Assembly (NCBI GenBank): GCA_030150795.1
Contig: JASLFF010000215.1
Coordinates: forward strand, 1-6,179
DNA from: Terriglobales bacterium
Lineage (GTDB): Bacteria > Acidobacteriota > Terriglobia > Terriglobales > Gp1-AA117
Direction of reading: 5' to 3'
DNA length: 6,179 nucleotides
Shown here piece after piece: positions 1,600 to 6,179 of the stretch (positions are counted from its first letter, which is position 1; the number at the start of each line of letters is the position of its first letter). Below the pieces are notes generated by a model that saw nothing but the letters and a program-made list of their open reading frames with translations, was not told the DNA's origin and made no database searches. A program made the translations under genes and the position numbers.

Positions 1600-2652
1600 C
1601 TATTTCATCTGTTTGCGAGCCTGCCAGAAAGAATGTTCTGGCCAGCGATGCTCGATTGCATAGTATAGGCGACGCTGTCGTACATATTCTTCAAATTCCA
1701 AACGCACTTGCCTGGCATATGAGGCCATCGAGTCGGTCTCACCATGAAGGCACGCGGTGACGGCGGCCGTTGCAGAACTTGCTTGACGAAGCGCCTTGAA
1801 AACGCCACGCCCTGAAAGCGGATCATATGAAGAGGCGCTGTCTCCAACGGCCAGCCAGCCATTGCCGAAAACTGCCGTACGGCAGGATGAGGTTACGCGC
1901 AGCACTCGCGAGTCCTGGATCTGGCCGCCTTCCAGTCGGCGCGCCGTGAAGGGAGCAGCCTTGAGTTGTTCGTCAATCGCGATGCCGTCTCGGCGATATA
2001 TGCCGGGATCGGTAAAAAACATTGCAATCGCTGTTTCTCCCGGCAGTGGAGCGCTATACCACCAGCCGGATGAAGTGGTCTCAATGCAGGTGCGGAGATC
2101 CCGCGGAAATCGAGCCGAACAGGAGATTGTTAGCGCAATCGCCAGCAATTCATCTTCGGTCTCGCGATCTGCATTGCCGTCAATGCGAAGCCCGTTTCTT
2201 CCGCAGGCATCGACCAGAATGCGCGACCGGCACTCACTCACACTCCAACCATTATCTGTGCGGCAACATGTTCCCACGCGGCGGCAGGGATAGACCTGCG
2301 CTCCGGCGCGTGCGGCTTCCTTCACCAACATGGCATCAAATTGTCTGCGATCAATGTGCCACCCAGGGCCATGAACGTTGCGAACGAAATCCACCTCTAC
2401 AGGGAGCGGATCGCCCCAAAGGGAGATCATGCCAGAGGTCTCAAGCGGAGAAAGCGATTGGAAGGCTTCCCAAAGTCCCAGGCTGCGCAAAACCGGATTG
2501 ATCTCCGGCGGCAAGGTCTCGCCATACCTTGGAAGATCATATGCCGTGGCTTCCAATAAAGCGACGCGGCATCCCTGGCGTGCCAGGCACAAAGCAACTA
2601 CCGCGCCCGCAGGTCCACCGCCCGCCACCAGTACATCGAACTCTTCGACCAT
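1600..2652 (-). CDS. lodB: LodB/GoxB-like FAD-dependent quinone-cofactor maturation protein
   Basis: FAD-binding monooxygenase-fold protein of about 350 residues. LodB-type flavoproteins are needed for post-translational formation of the CTQ cofactor in LodA-type oxidases. Visible features, numbered from ATG 2652, are the dinucleotide motif VLVAGGGPAGA (7-17) with an acidic end at LLE (32-34), GETLPPEINPVLRSLGL (45-61), GWHIDRRQFD (97-106), VDACGRNG (147-154), GWWYSAPLPGE (196-206), and the second FAD motif GWLAVGDSASSYDPLSGRG (265-283). No signal peptide or membrane segment is seen. The ATG at 2652 is preferred over the in-frame GTG at 2658, because AAGG on the minus strand would leave no spacing for the GTG but about five bases for the ATG. 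The gene is divergent from the LodA-like gene, whereas in Marinomonas the two are co-directional. A generic tryptophan-halogenase or geranylgeranyl-reductase relative is the alternative; the lodA neighbour decides for LodB. Confidence 0.85.
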   Translation of the reverse strand: MVEEFDVLVAGGGPAGAVVALCLARQGCRVALLEATAYDLPRYGETLPPEINPVLRSLGLWEAFQSLSPLETSGMISLWGDPLPVEVDFVRNVHGPGWHIDRRQFDAMLVKEAARAGAQVYPCRRVGTCCRTDNGWSVSECRSRILVDACGRNGLRIDGNADRETEDELLAIALTISCSARFPRDLRTCIETTSSGWWYSAPLPGETAIAMFFTDPGIYRRDGIAIDEQLKAAPFTARRLEGGQIQDSRVLRVTSSCRTAVFGNGWLAVGDSASSYDPLSGRGVFKALRQASSATAAVTACLHGETDSMASYARQVRLEFEEYVRQRRLYYAIEHRWPEHSFWQARKQMK

Positions 2653-2715
2653 CGCCACCTTAATGAAAATTAATGATTAGCCTGTAGTGTGCCATTCAGT
2701 AGTCCGCTACATTTA

Positions 2716-2731
2716 GCATGGAATTTCATGC
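2716..2731. repeat. Operator-like 16-base palindrome in the divergent spacer
   Basis: GCATG and CATGC form a perfect five-base inverted repeat around the centre GAATTT, of which AATT is itself symmetric. It sits nine bases before the TATAAT box, where a regulator could control one or both divergent genes. No regulator gene is in the window, so the role is inferred. Confidence 0.35.
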
Positions 2732-2740
2732 CTCACAGAA

Positions 2741-2746
2741 TATAAT
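2741..2746 (+). promoter_or_regulatory. Candidate -10 box for lodA-like gene
   Basis: A perfect TATAAT lies 21 bases before the ATG at 2768. No good TTGACA-like -35 box is found 16-18 bases upstream; that position overlaps the palindrome at 2716-2731, consistent with an activator-dependent or regulated promoter. Confidence 0.45.
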
Positions 2747-2755
2747 TTACAACCC

Positions 2756-2760
2756 AAGGA
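2756..2760 (+). promoter_or_regulatory. Ribosome binding site for lodA-like gene
   Basis: AAGGA is followed by a seven-base gap to the ATG at 2768, supporting that start. The encoded N-terminus reaches the family signature within ten residues. Confidence 0.6.
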
Positions 2761-2767
2761 AGAAATC

Positions 2768-4669
2768 ATGAACGTGGATTCGGTTGTTGCGGCGCGCATT
2801 CATCCAGCGATTGGCATTGCTCGGGTAGGAAATAGCGATGAATTCTTTATTGGTCCTGAGGTGCCGCACCCCACTCCACCACCCGAGGGCGGCTATCGCG
2901 ACAAGCAAGGCCGGCTCAAACGGCAGGCTGCGCGTTTTCGTGTCTATGGATACGACAGCGCCGGCAATGTGGTCGCGGAGTTGACCGCATCAAATGCAGA
3001 GATCAAGTGGACAGCGCACGTGGCGAACAAGAAGGCCGCGTGGTACGACTTTGACGCCGCGCTCGATTTGCCCGAAGCCGTCAATCTCCAGTCTGCCCGT
3101 CGTAATGCGGCGATTCAGGGAAAGGACCGGGAAAAGCTGGTCATTGACCCAGGGCCGCGATCAGTATCCGGCAGGAGACAAAAATCAAGTCCGTTTGATA
3201 CAGGCAAGTTTCTCGGACAAAAGGTGTATCTCGGGGAGTTGCAGACGGATGAAGAAGGCCGATTAATTTTCATCGGAGGAAAGGGCAAGTCGGGCAGTCC
3301 TCTGCCGGAATACACCCTGGTTACATTTGCCAACAATCTGAGATGGTATGACGATATGTCGGATGGGCCAGTGTCTGCGACGGTCAGCATCGGCGGGCGC
3401 ACTATCCCTGTTGACCCGGCCTGGATAGTAACCGCTCCGCCCAACTACTCGCCCGATTTGGTAACGCCGCAGACGATGTACGACGTGATCCGTGACGCGG
3501 TTACCGGGCCGCTGCTGCCAAAGCCGGGCAAGCCATCTTTTACGCGCGATATTCTGCCGCTGTTCCGGCAGTTCCACGAGGCGCAATGGGTCAATAGCGG
3601 TTTTTTTGTTCAATTCGGCTGGATGGGGCCAAACGACTTCATGCGGCCGGATGTACTCAAGAAGTTGTCCACGCCTCCGACGGGAACCGACGACCCTTTC
3701 GGTGAAATGCGCCGCCAGATCTTCTATTCATTCCGCGACCCTTCTGCCACCACGTTCGAACCTCTCAAATGGCCTCCGCTTTATGGAGATGCATTTGGCA
3801 GCTTTGACAGCCCTCCGGGCCCGCGGGTCGGTTTTGCTTTCACGAAGACGATCTATGAGTTTCTGCGGCAATGGATGACCGGCAACTTTACCGGCGACTA
3901 CGACCCCTCCGTGCGAGAGCCAGAGTCGATCGTCGATGTTGCCGTGGCGGAACAACCCGATACCCTGGACCGTGCCGCTCTACACTTTTGCATGGGCGGA
4001 CCGTTTCACCCCGGTTGCGAGATGACATGGCCGATGCGACAAGCCTCCATGTATCGCGCACCATTTCGTTTACGCCAGCGTGCGGACGGCCAGGCGGAGC
4101 CCGACTATGGCGAGTTCCTGACACAAGCCACAGTCCTGGCTGAAGACGGACCGCTTTCCGCCAGCGGTCCTGGCGATATCAGCAAATGGATGGCAGTGCC
4201 GTGGCAAACGGATACAGCGAGTTGTCGAGCCGGTTATCCTGGCAGACCGTTTCCGGAAGACGCCTTCATTCCGAGCTTCTGGCCCTCGCGCGTGCCGAAT
4301 ACGATCCTGACTGATGCGAACTACAAAATCGTGATTGACGCCAGCCAACCACTCGAGAAACGCATCGCTGCGTTCTACGACCGGTGCAATTGGTTGCGGA
4401 GTCTAGGTCTGAAGCGGCCTTACGTGGAACAGATCACGCACATGGTTCATCACTTCGGCGAGTTGGGTCTGATAGAAAAACGTGAAACCACGGCGGGCCC
4501 GGATTTTCCTTCCGTGATGTATGTAGAGACGCTTCCGCCAGGGGCGCCAGCACCAATATTGCGGGCGGCTGCCTCTTTGACCGAAATAGCACGCGAGCCT
4601 GAACCGTCGGGAGTCAGCCTCGAATTCGCGCAGGCCAGGTTTCCCGCGTCGCGTCGCCTCAAACGCTGA
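2768..4669 (+). CDS. lodA: LodA/GoxA-family CTQ-dependent amino acid oxidase
   Basis: A 633-residue protein of the LodA family, which oxidatively deaminates amino acids (the epsilon-amine of lysine in LodA, glycine in GoxA), giving H2O2 and ammonia. The N-terminal signature RIHPAIGIARVGNS (10-23) with FFIGPE (26-31) is diagnostic. Other family segments are QAARFRVYGYD (53-63), DPGPRSVSG (127-135), KVYLGELQTDE (152-162), FANNLRWYDDMSDGPV (187-202), CMGGPFHPGCEMTW (408-421), PWQTDTASC (478-486) and FWPSRVPN (504-511). Cys486, four residues after Asp482, matches the cofactor-forming Cys and its upstream Asp in LodA (Cys516, Asp512). The Trp partner is less clear: Trp505 and Trp542 are candidates, and Phe563 occupies a spot where I expect Trp in many members. 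The start is ATG 2768 with AAGGA at 2756-2760. There is no signal peptide. Substrate cannot be predicted. The LodB-like maturation partner is divergent, 115 bases away. Confidence 0.9.
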   Translation: MNVDSVVAARIHPAIGIARVGNSDEFFIGPEVPHPTPPPEGGYRDKQGRLKRQAARFRVYGYDSAGNVVAELTASNAEIKWTAHVANKKAAWYDFDAALDLPEAVNLQSARRNAAIQGKDREKLVIDPGPRSVSGRRQKSSPFDTGKFLGQKVYLGELQTDEEGRLIFIGGKGKSGSPLPEYTLVTFANNLRWYDDMSDGPVSATVSIGGRTIPVDPAWIVTAPPNYSPDLVTPQTMYDVIRDAVTGPLLPKPGKPSFTRDILPLFRQFHEAQWVNSGFFVQFGWMGPNDFMRPDVLKKLSTPPTGTDDPFGEMRRQIFYSFRDPSATTFEPLKWPPLYGDAFGSFDSPPGPRVGFAFTKTIYEFLRQWMTGNFTGDYDPSVREPESIVDVAVAEQPDTLDRAALHFCMGGPFHPGCEMTWPMRQASMYRAPFRLRQRADGQAEPDYGEFLTQATVLAEDGPLSASGPGDISKWMAVPWQTDTASCRAGYPGRPFPEDAFIPSFWPSRVPNTILTDANYKIVIDASQPLEKRIAAFYDRCNWLRSLGLKRPYVEQITHMVHHFGELGLIEKRETTAGPDFPSVMYVETLPPGAPAPILRAAASLTEIAREPEPSGVSLEFAQARFPASRRLKR

Positions 4670-4745
4670 AGGCACCGCAAGGCTGACCAATTGACTGATT
4701 TTGTATTGTCTGTTTCTCCAGTCTCAGCGTTTCGGAAGAGTTCCC

Positions 4746-4779
4746 GCAGATCTCGGCAAAAACTGCTCTGAGATCTTGC
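4746..4779. repeat. Inverted repeat / hairpin downstream of lodA-like gene
   Basis: AGATCTC (4748-4754) pairs perfectly with GAGATCT (4770-4776). The stem can extend by GC/GC across a single bulged T, and an inner GCA/TGC (4756-4758 with 4764-4766) can also pair. No T-run follows, so it is not a typical intrinsic terminator. It may stabilise the 3' end of the LodA-like transcript or be a binding site. Confidence 0.4.
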
Positions 4780-5146
4780 AGACATATGATTCATGTAGCA
4801 GAGTTTAACCAGTGGCAGGAGACGGAACGCAAGACACCTGCCAGCAGACAAAGAATCGGATGATAACCTCGTGATCGGACTTCACGGCCTTTGCTAGCAA
4901 TACCAACACAATTCCAAAATGTATCCTCAACTCTAACTTCGGCCATACTCTTCACTGGCAACAAGACTGATTTTTTTCTGCATCAACTCTCTCCCATTCT
5001 GGGAATCCTGATTGCGAAAATTCCAGTGAAAACGTTGAACGAGAGAACGATTCTTCTTAAGCTGGTTTGATGTGGTCGCAATTTGTTTTCTTCTTAGATG
5101 GAAGGTTGCGGAAAGCGGCCCGAGACGAAAACACAGAGGACACTAA

Positions 5147-5160
5147 CCGGCAATGGCCGG
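5147..5160. repeat. Small GC-rich hairpin in the precursor-peptide leader region
   Basis: CCGGC and GCCGG form a five-pair stem with an AATG loop. The unit CCGGCAA also occurs twice in direct orientation (5147-5153 and 5157-5163). Flanking GTTGC (5105-5109) and GCAAC (5160-5164) could close a larger fold. No known riboswitch consensus is matched convincingly. Confidence 0.3.
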
Positions 5161-5224
5161 CAACTCCCACGCCTATGCCGACAAACCTGAAGCTCCGGTA
5201 AACCAACCCTGATTTTTAGGTGAT

Positions 5225-5247
5225 CCATATTCTTGCTAAACCATATT
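5225..5247. repeat. Direct repeat CCATATT, 16-base period, upstream of peptide genes
   Basis: CCATATT occurs at 5225-5231 and again at 5241-5247, flanking a TTGCTA that could be a weak -35 element. This is 57 bases upstream of the first precursor gene, so it could be a regulator binding site. Two seven-base copies can easily arise by chance. Confidence 0.25.
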
Positions 5248-5290
5248 TTTGGCCGATCATGCGGAATTAGAAAAAGTCATTTCACTCAAA

Positions 5291-5297
5291 AAAGGAG
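5291..5297 (+). promoter_or_regulatory. Ribosome binding site for precursor peptide 1
   Basis: AAAGGAG lies six bases before the ATG at 5304. This strong site is a main reason to accept such a short gene, and it favours ATG 5304 over the in-frame ATG at 5319. Confidence 0.7.
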
Positions 5298-5303
5298 CAA
5301 TCA

Positions 5304-5468
5304 ATGTTGGAGCAAATCATGTCTAACCGAGTACTGACCCGCCAGGGCGCGCGCGAGTTGACGACCGAAGAAGTACAGCATGTTGCCGGTGGAACCACGA
5401 CTGGATGCCGTGGCACTTCACTTCACAAGGGTGGCCCCATAGTCGATGTCCTCTGCGACCCTAGCTAG
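5304..5468 (+). CDS. Precursor peptide 1 of a putative graspetide-type RiPP
   Basis: A 54-residue peptide not detectable by usual length limits. The leader runs to a double-glycine end: NRVLTRQGARELTTEE (8-23), then VAGG (27-30). The core of 24 residues begins TTTGCRGTS (31-39) and ends IVDVLCDPS (46-54). Candidate side-chain donors are Thr31-33, Thr38, Ser39 and Lys42; the only acidic acceptors after the GG are Asp48 and Asp52. Cys35 and Cys51 could instead form a disulfide. The leader is clearly paralogous to that of the next peptide (NRVL.RQ.AR.LT..E......GG), which is strong evidence that both are real and processed by common enzymes. The Gly-Gly boundary suggests removal by a C39-type or similar peptidase, not in the window. 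The ATP-grasp gene downstream makes graspetide chemistry the best guess; a GG-leader bacteriocin without cross-links is the alternative. Confidence 0.75.
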   Translation: MLEQIMSNRVLTRQGARELTTEEVQHVAGGTTTGCRGTSLHKGGPIVDVLCDPS

Positions 5469-5517
5469 CCAACCAGGGACGCAGTTTCAGAATGAAGTAA
5501 ATGGAAGAACAATTCAT

Positions 5518-5524
5518 AAAGGAG
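5518..5524 (+). promoter_or_regulatory. Ribosome binding site for precursor peptide 2
   Basis: AAAGGAG is placed seven bases before the ATG at 5532. It is the same sequence as the site before peptide 1, fitting duplication of the whole translation-initiation and leader unit. Confidence 0.7.
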
Positions 5525-5531
5525 AAAAATA

Positions 5532-5690
5532 ATGTCGAAAAGCCCAGACAATCGAGTACTTAGCCGTCAACTGGCCCGAGACTTGACACCCCAGGAGCTT
5601 GAAACCATTACCGGCGGATTTTTCACAAATCCGAATCGAGATGTAACCACTACTTTCTGCACGCTTGCCTCAGACGGCGACGATGACTAA
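5532..5690 (+). CDS. Precursor peptide 2 of a putative graspetide-type RiPP
   Basis: A 52-residue peptide. The leader has NRVLSRQLARDLTPQELE (7-24) and ends ITGG (26-29), matching peptide 1 residue for residue at NRVL, RQ, AR, LT and GG. The 23-residue core begins FFTNPNRDV (30-38), then TTTFCTLAS (39-47), and ends in DGDDD (48-52). A cluster of Thr/Ser (39, 40, 41, 44, 47) followed at once by four Asp is the donor/acceptor arrangement expected for ester cross-links made by graspetide ATP-grasp enzymes. The single Cys43 cannot form an internal disulfide. It lies 63 bases after peptide 1, is probably co-transcribed with it, and is followed immediately by an intrinsic terminator. Ring topology and bioactivity cannot be read from sequence. 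Confidence 0.8.
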   Translation: MSKSPDNRVLSRQLARDLTPQELETITGGFFTNPNRDVTTTFCTLASDGDDD

Positions 5691-5699
5691 ACAGAAAGA

Positions 5700-5732
5700 G
5701 GGCCGCCCGCCGGATGGCGACGGCCCCTTTTT
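5700..5732 (+). terminator. Intrinsic terminator after the precursor peptides
   Basis: The outer stem GGGCCG (5700-5705) pairs with CGGCCC (5721-5726). The inner stem CGCC (5708-5711) pairs with GGCG (5716-5719) around a GGAT loop, with a small internal bulge. One C and then five T follow at 5728-5732. It begins nine bases after the stop of peptide 2 and stands before the ligase gene, so it should end or attenuate the peptide transcript and keep precursor mRNA in excess over ligase mRNA. Confidence 0.8.
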
Positions 5733-5790
5733 AGCTTGCCGTAACTCAAGGCAGTGAAGTACACGCCAGTTCCCAGGACTCAATCCAGAC

Positions 5791-5796
5791 AGGAGG
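5791..5796 (+). promoter_or_regulatory. Ribosome binding site for ATP-grasp gene
   Basis: A perfect AGGAGG lies ten bases before the ATG at 5807. The gap is slightly long but usable. Confidence 0.6.
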
Positions 5797-5806
5797 ACCG
5801 CTCAAC

Positions 5807-6179
5807 ATGAAGGTCATTATTTTTGCCTATGCCAAAGAAAACCACACAGCGCCGGTAAAGTGGGCGCTGGAGCAAGCCGGCTATGAAGTAGCTTGCTGGG
5901 GCGGACTTTCATGGACTGAACAGCAACAAGCTTCACTGCAGCTGAACGCGCAGACGAAGATGACTCTGGGGCCGCACACGGTGGAACCCGGCGATGCAAT
6001 CTGGATCCGGCGGCCTGACGTGCCGACGCACAATCCCAACGCATCAGAGGCGGACAGGAAATTTGCGGAACAGGAATATCGCGCCTTTTACCACTGCATT
6101 GCGTGCACGCTGGAAACCCTGCCTGTGTGGTGCATCAACAAATTTTCAGCGGCGCGTTTTATCCACAACAAGGCGGTGC
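5807..6179 (+). CDS. ATP-grasp RiPP ligase (graspetide synthetase-like), 3' partial
   Basis: An open frame of 124 codons runs off the right edge; only the N-terminal (pre-ATP-grasp) domain is visible. It opens MKVIIFAYAKENHTAPVKWA (1-20), an alpha/beta nucleotide-ligase-type start. Further on are AIWIRRPDVP (65-74), an acidic helix with KFAEQEYRAF (85-94), and PVWCINKFSAARFIHNKA (106-123). The W.RRP, FA..E and WxIN....A...NK pattern is what I know from MvdC/MvdD-type macrocyclases and their relatives, which use ATP to activate Asp/Glu side chains of a precursor peptide and form esters with Thr/Ser or amides with Lys. The catalytic ATP-grasp core is beyond the window. Two precursor-like peptides directly upstream support a RiPP role over a glutathione-synthetase or RimK-like role. 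A terminator separates it from the peptides, so it relies on readthrough or its own promoter. Confidence 0.75.
   Translation, partial: MKVIIFAYAKENHTAPVKWALEQAGYEVACWGGLSWTEQQQASLQLNAQTKMTLGPHTVEPGDAIWIRRPDVPTHNPNASEADRKFAEQEYRAFYHCIACTLETLPVWCINKFSAARFIHNKAV

Follow-up and report, generated by a model that had tools for sequence, protein, structure and literature searches.

A probable graspetide locus of Acidobacteriota with two leader-sharing precursor peptides and paired core cysteines among its relatives

Introduction

Graspetides of known function are mostly protease inhibitors and come from few phyla; for the graspimiditides (group 13), an isoaspartyl methyltransferase in the cluster serves as a criterion. 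The text of Makarova 2022 describes many graspetide families (PMC8939145), and that of Carter 2026 sets out 43 graspetide groups (PMC13097080). A term search for Acidobacteria found no mention in the main text of PMC8939145 and none in the main text of PMC13097080. As far as their text goes, other reports place a few Acidobacteria among group-13 graspetide clusters (PMC13001092) and refer, with no detail, to a family of ribosomally synthesised peptide clusters shared among Angelobacter species (PMC9723581). A literature search pairing Angelobacter with RiPP as terms gave no match.

Fuscimiditide (ThfA/ThfB) is described as carrying two nested esters, T3-D22 and T7-D18 (PMC12291112). Rosaritide (MirA/MirB, group 21) has a partner isomerase, and its MirB is labelled TIGR04187 (PMC13097080). 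Multi-precursor Bacteroides loci (branch 5), as presented in PMC8939145, combine divergent GG-leader precursors, conserved cysteines, one ATP-grasp and a SPASM enzyme, and thioethers were suggested for them. Where disulfides appear in the graspetide literature consulted, they concern engineered or substituted precursors.

Here we analyse a 6,179-nucleotide contig of a Terriglobales bacterium (assembly GCA_030150795.1, contig JASLFF010000215.1), called the window below. A first-pass annotation, made from its letters, had proposed a compact graspetide-like locus at the right-hand end.

Results

The window holds the following features.

1-738 and 735-1553, + strand: two tandem overlapping amino-acid-kinase-fold genes
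1600-2658, - strand: LodB/GoxB-like flavoprotein, divergent from LodA
2768-4669, + strand: LodA/GoxA-like oxidase (GoxA model E 1e-127, under its cut-off)
5291-5297, + strand: ribosome-binding site AAAGGAG of peptide 1, ending 6 nt before the ATG at 5304
5304-5468, + strand: peptide 1 open reading frame, 54 aa (49 aa from a second in-frame ATG at 5319)
5304-5393, + strand: leader of peptide 1, 30 aa, terminal GG
5394-5468, + strand: core of peptide 1, TTTGCRGTSLHKGGPIVDVLCDPS, plus stop
5518-5524, + strand: ribosome-binding site AAAGGAG of peptide 2, read from sequence
5532-5690, + strand: peptide 2 open reading frame, 52 aa
5532-5618, + strand: leader of peptide 2, 29 aa, terminal GG
5619-5690, + strand: core of peptide 2, FFTNPNRDVTTTFCTLASDGDDD, plus stop
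5693-5732, + strand: hairpin with T tract, terminator-like or processing (-24 kcal/mol, z -2.9)
5791-5796, + strand: ribosome-binding site AGGAGG of the ATP-grasp gene, read from sequence
5807-6179, + strand: predicted ATP-grasp graspetide synthetase, N-terminal 124 aa (97% to P0051); the window ends inside the gene

The first-pass annotation had described two peptides of 54 and 52 residues, each behind an AAAGGAG site and sharing a leader. Both reading frames and both sites were located as described, and the two leaders, NRVLTRQGARELTTEEVQHVAGG in peptide 1 and NRVLSRQLARDLTPQELETITGG in peptide 2, follow the common pattern NRVLxRQxARxLTxxE...GG and end in GG. The ATP-grasp gene does not begin directly after the peptides, as had been stated: 116 nt, with a predicted hairpin, separate the peptide 2 stop from its ATG. 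The precursors had also been called overlooked, which is true of their role, but databases already list peptide homologues under the label of hypothetical proteins. An Rfam scan of the window, PADLOC on seven window proteins and a promoter scan over 4600-6179 gave no match.

Hairpins similar to that at 5693-5732 follow the peptide 2 copies in two related loci, L039 (z -2.6) and L047 (z -2.8 and -0.2), one of the four peptide 2 hairpins being not significant (z -0.19). A consensus terminator scan did not report the 5693-5732 hairpin on the + strand; it gave 2 sites, both on the minus strand, against 2.1 expected. Across 56 precursors, the 60 nt that follow the stop codon fold better than shuffled sequence, with a mean z of -1.24 (17/56 below -2), which is not so for the first 60 nt of the same genes (mean z 0.07; 3/56 below -2).

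A search by leader pattern and then by profile recovered 69 intact precursors with this leader at 16 loci including the window: 14 in L048, 11 in L051, 7 each in L050 and L053, 5 each in L001 and L054, 4 in L047, 3 each in L055 and L056, 2 each in L039, L049 and the window, and one each in L052, L040, L041 and L057, the last three being weaker profile matches (E 3e-6, 3e-6 and 1e-3). The count derives from 56 pattern matches and 18 additional profile matches, with one shortened reading frame (L053) and four broken or fragmentary ones (L051, L052) excluded. Further precursors, which the first-pass annotation had proposed to look for, are thus plentiful in relatives. The leaders end in GG (39), GA (14), AA (8), GS (4) or otherwise (4). 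The 56 pattern matches fell within 387,043 bases (the window and 25 loci), and there were none in the same sequences reversed, in 7,740,860 shuffled bases, or in the ten of these loci (142,007 bases) that serve as controls, having no more than distant ATP-grasp homologues or LodA genes, so the pattern occurs beyond chance. The published Pro-hydrophobic leader motif Phhx(1,2)h was missing from all 69 (0/69); the text of PMC8939145 gives that motif for about half of graspetide precursors, and it is hence not strictly defining. Broken precursor copies lie beside intact ones in L051 (about 10870-11179) and L052 (about 3345-3722), as would be expected of fast-turning arrays.

The peptide pair recurs in the same order beside the same enzyme in L039, from Ca. 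Angelobacter AA117 (G001), and in L047, from G434, with peptide 2 doubled in L047. Peptides and enzyme are orthologous to those of the window, and the pairing of peptides with ligase is kept in relatives. Protein searches including metagenomes returned 2131 and 200 precursor clusters with two profiles (E <= 0.01).

A different reading of the window would make the LodA/GoxA-like oxidase and the LodB-like flavoprotein upstream tailoring enzymes of the graspetide cluster. In L055 a LodA-LodB pair (1976-4557) lies directly upstream of the exporter, precursors and synthetase, and LodA_N is present in only 2 of 12 genomes searched; the two LodA-graspetide adjacencies, in the window and L055, may exceed chance. 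However, the orthologues of the window LodA (82%) and LodB (78%) form a pair at G696:C12 that has no graspetide locus within the 14 kb covered, and the window proteins share just 41% (LodA) and 36% (LodB) identity with the L055 pair. L039 and L047 have the same precursors with no LodA beside them, and the window LodA and LodB are divergent, with 634 bp from the LodA stop to peptide 1. We regard such tailoring as unlikely, the upstream window genes being probably independent of the graspetide cluster. The oxidase seems to have the cysteine and tryptophan that would form CTQ, and the kinase-fold pair is reminiscent of the two subunits of the molybdenum storage protein.

Both peptides are real genes, since synonymous changes are in excess and indicate selection at the protein level. 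Between the window and three orthologues, peptide 2 shows 21-26 synonymous and 6-11 non-synonymous changes, of which 8-11 and 0-3 fall in the core, so that the core is at least as constrained as the leader. For the core of peptide 1, synonymous changes number 5.5 and 11 and non-synonymous ones 3.5 and 7, with about one third as many synonymous as non-synonymous sites. The cluster had been called a functioning one; selection of this kind is seen, and function itself is presumed from it.

Thr/Ser and Asp residues had been noted in the cores, and these candidate donors and acceptors are conserved in relatives of both peptides. The peptide 1-type core follows the pattern T-G-C-x-G-T-S-L-H-[KP]-x-G-P-[IV]-V-D-x-x-C-[DE], and its frame accommodates 106 of the 107 database relatives in which GC.[GS] is matched (statistics from the best-scoring 120 of 2131 matches). 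Counted after GG the layout is T3-x-C5-x-x-T8-S9 ... D18-x-x-C21-D22; this numbering is the window's own, most relatives having one residue fewer before T3. Across these 106, once aligned, no change occurs at T3, at D18 or at either cysteine, and position 22 is D in 102 and E in 4; T8 is replaced by M in one relative, S9 by A in three and K12 by P in ten. This conservation makes T3 and T8 the better donors and indicates that K12 is not needed. Among the proteins listed, 12 are of the peptide 2 type and have the same core except at three positions. In 129 distinct cores, chosen for a T-x-T/S-x-C-T/S ... D-G/C-D pattern, donors and acceptors are separated by 3 to 9 residues (mostly 7-9), a variable stretch that behaves as a loop would.

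Core cysteines come mostly in even numbers. Among 51 distinct cores, 16 have none, 31 two, 2 four, 1 one and 1 three, so that 49/51 are even, and the 2 odd cores compare with 24 expected if numbers were random (sd 3.6), although common descent inflates all such cysteine statistics. The exceptions are peptide 2, with one cysteine, and L057, where a distant precursor near 3400-3671 has three. Counting all 69 cores, 64 are even, and four of the five odd ones are peptide 2 copies. The best 120 of 2131 matches to one profile (A2) are all even (112 with two cysteines, 8 with four). When T-x-T/S-x-X cores are scored for a cysteine at X and for a second one further on, 95 have both, 10 have neither, and 1 and 3 have a single one (Fisher 7e-11); two such cores, in L055 and L048, lost both, the joint loss that a disulfide predicts. 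The pairing suggests, at the level of sequence, a disulfide besides ester rings.

Even cysteine numbers would also fit disulfide-bonded GG-leader bacteriocins, with the neighbouring ligase acting on something else, and the leaders do weakly match Bacteriocin_IIc (E 0.07) and the CTB bacteriocin model NF038167 (E 0.05). We consider this very unlikely: the leader family accompanies the enzyme family at 16 loci and is missing at the 10 control loci, and the L050 and L053 cores, which have no cysteine, nonetheless keep Thr/Ser and Asp. The L050 and L053 arrays have another core pattern (Thr/Ser then S-N-P-D ... D-Q) and their own synthetase clade.

The 124-aa enzyme fragment of the window is nearly silent in the libraries, with no Pfam match, no PDB match at E <= 1 and a sole, weak NCBIfam match (TIGR04187, E = 0.016), so that its identity rests on full-length relatives. 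A full-length copy (G001:C38) used as query gave 709 homologues at E <= 0.001; among the 120 listed, P0051 is the best match to the fragment, at 97% over 124 aa. The C-terminus of P0051 diverges from other relatives after about residue 322, possibly through a frameshift in that record. TIGR04187 was the best NCBIfam match of all four relatives scanned (E about 5e-44 to 7e-48), followed by MvdD and MvdC. All four fall below the curated cut-offs, which stand at 350 (SAV_5884), 475 (MvdD) and 425 (MvdC) bits; the top scores are 163.5, 135.4 and 114.6 bits, in that order. An enzyme of the MvdC/MvdD kind had been proposed; the homology bears out the class, but scores under the MvdC, MvdD and GRASP_SAV_5884 cut-offs place the relatives outside those named subfamilies.

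Against the PDB, a profile of 23 relatives (A3) matched six sequences only, all graspetide-type ligases: 5ig9, 7mgv, 7m4s, 5ig8, 9bou and 7drm, comprising MdnC, CdnC, AMdnB, MdnB, 9bou (titled PruB) and 7drm (PsnB). Chains of these six also fill Foldseek ranks 1-31 for the AlphaFold model of P0004 (pLDDT 80.6, pTM 0.81), RimK first appearing at rank 32. Residues K122, R214, D275, E288, N290 and G293 are invariant across the 23 relatives and align with MdnC and CdnC; the window enzyme, ending at residue 124, shows K122 only. The full-length relatives keep these predicted catalytic residues, and in both sequence and fold they come closest to graspetide synthetases, not to unrelated ligases. Sequence and model agree with an ATP-grasp peptide ligase of the graspetide kind. 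That the enzyme is instead a RimK-like ligase, adding residues to peptides or joining them with no side-chain rings, is the most improbable reading, for although RimK shares the fold (from rank 32, E 6e-14) and TIGR00768 matches the relatives weakly (E 1e-6 to 2.5e-3), graspetide synthetase models are far ahead by sequence (TIGR04187, E about 1e-46), graspetide synthetases alone match the profile in the PDB and lead by fold, and peptide 1 relatives have the invariant core Thr and Asp that ring formation needs.

A C39 peptidase/exporter, which the first-pass annotation had suggested seeking, is absent from the window but stands beside precursors in other loci of relatives. By Pfam, a C39-ABC protein adjoins the precursors in L001; homologues do so in L041, L048, L051, L054, L055, L056 and L057, and C39-ABC proteins lie beside precursors at G434:C2, G610:C290, G521:C48, G696:C197 and G704:C218. 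The window-like loci L039 (12.7 kb) and L047 (18 kb) contain none. The sole long C39 protein of G001 is encoded at C194, and the longest one of G434 at C2, both beside other precursor arrays, which suggests that one exporter may serve several loci in trans; each genome has additional, shorter C39 frames.

Enzyme homologues were found in 8/396 genomes drawn from the phylum and 11/397 from the order (E <= 1e-20) and in 8/398 from the family (E <= 1e-40), the three draws overlapping. The enzyme family is therefore patchy among genomes, while precursors are many in searches that include metagenomes. The weakest phylum and order homologues (25-33% identity) have no precursor of this leader type nearby. 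There are four synthetase copies in G434 and three each in G001 and G610.

Discussion

At its right-hand end the window very probably holds, in 0.9 kb, the 5' portion of a locus for graspetide biosynthesis. Its source would be an Acidobacteriota lineage, probably from soil, that is Candidatus Angelobacter or close to it. The observed and computed basis of this reading is the layout, the leader family, the homology and modelled fold of the enzyme, the conservation of the pair, selection and cysteine parity. From there we infer the chemistry, the ring connectivity, the disulfide and a trans-acting exporter. The two precursors would be translated from strong ribosome-binding sites, and the ATP-grasp enzyme would bind the shared leader NRVLxRxxARxLTxxE...VxGG and phosphorylate core Asp/Glu side chains, which Thr/Ser would attack to give side-chain esters with a loss of 18 Da each. 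Cleavage after GG, GA or AA and export would fall to a C39 peptidase-exporter whose gene lies at another place in the genome, and paired cysteines of the exported product could then close a disulfide. Peptide 1 would likely form a nested hairpin, with a T3-D22 ester, a C5-C21 disulfide, a T8-D18 ester and the loop SLHKGGPIV. Peptide 2 might carry up to three or more esters, from its TTT/T/S cluster to the DGDDD tail, and its unpaired cysteine could dimerise.

More tentatively, and with some doubt, the locus may belong to a dispersed, library-like Acidobacteriota system, with several synthetase cassettes per genome, fast-diverging core arrays, a common leader, one protease-exporter and hybrid ester-disulfide ladders. 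The family is numerous in metagenomes, has a leader unlike the published motif and combines predicted ester rings with paired cysteines. As a compact set of enzyme and substrates, in which one ligase faces up to 14 natural cores, it could show what a ligase reads in the core.

In the literature consulted, we found no described product of this graspetide family and no description of an ester-disulfide ladder topology; searches with leader and core strings gave unrelated titles among the matches listed.

Microviridin and chryseoviridin (MdnB/MdnC, CdnC, AMdnB) resemble the locus in their homologous ATP-grasp ligase (5ig9, 7mgv, 5ig8, 7m4s), in modelled fold, and in short leader-core precursors ahead of the ligase gene, their ligases being about 20% identical to the P0004 model. 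Unlike microviridin, the Acidobacteriota family has no PFFARFL-like leader, has paired cysteines, and can set as many as 14 precursors beside a single enzyme gene (L048); its core sequences, too, are unlike microviridin.

Going by the published text on fuscimiditide, the residue pairs T3/D22 and T8/D18 of peptide 1 follow one another along a stem-loop as they do there, the connectivity being a guess. Peptide 1 has C5 and C21 in addition, within the stem, and no isoaspartyl methyltransferase was noticed among the partly annotated neighbours here. By analogy, fuscimiditide-like nesting in peptide 1 would put a disulfide between two esters.

Rosaritide, as far as its report describes it, is alike in that TIGR04187, the label of MirB, is the best NCBIfam family of the relatives here too, in a donor cluster, loop and close Asp acceptors (D22, D24, D26) that recall the DGD/DGDDD tails, and in a C39-type exporter like that of Acidobacteriota relatives. 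It differs in its leader, window-family cores have cysteines, and no counterpart of the partner isomerase was noticed here. The branch 5 Bacteroides loci, in the account cited above, likewise have several divergent GG-leader precursors beside one ATP-grasp, but here no conserved SPASM neighbour was seen, cysteine numbers are even and the phylum is different. Compared with published groups as their main text presents them, the family seems set apart by its leader and its paired cysteines.
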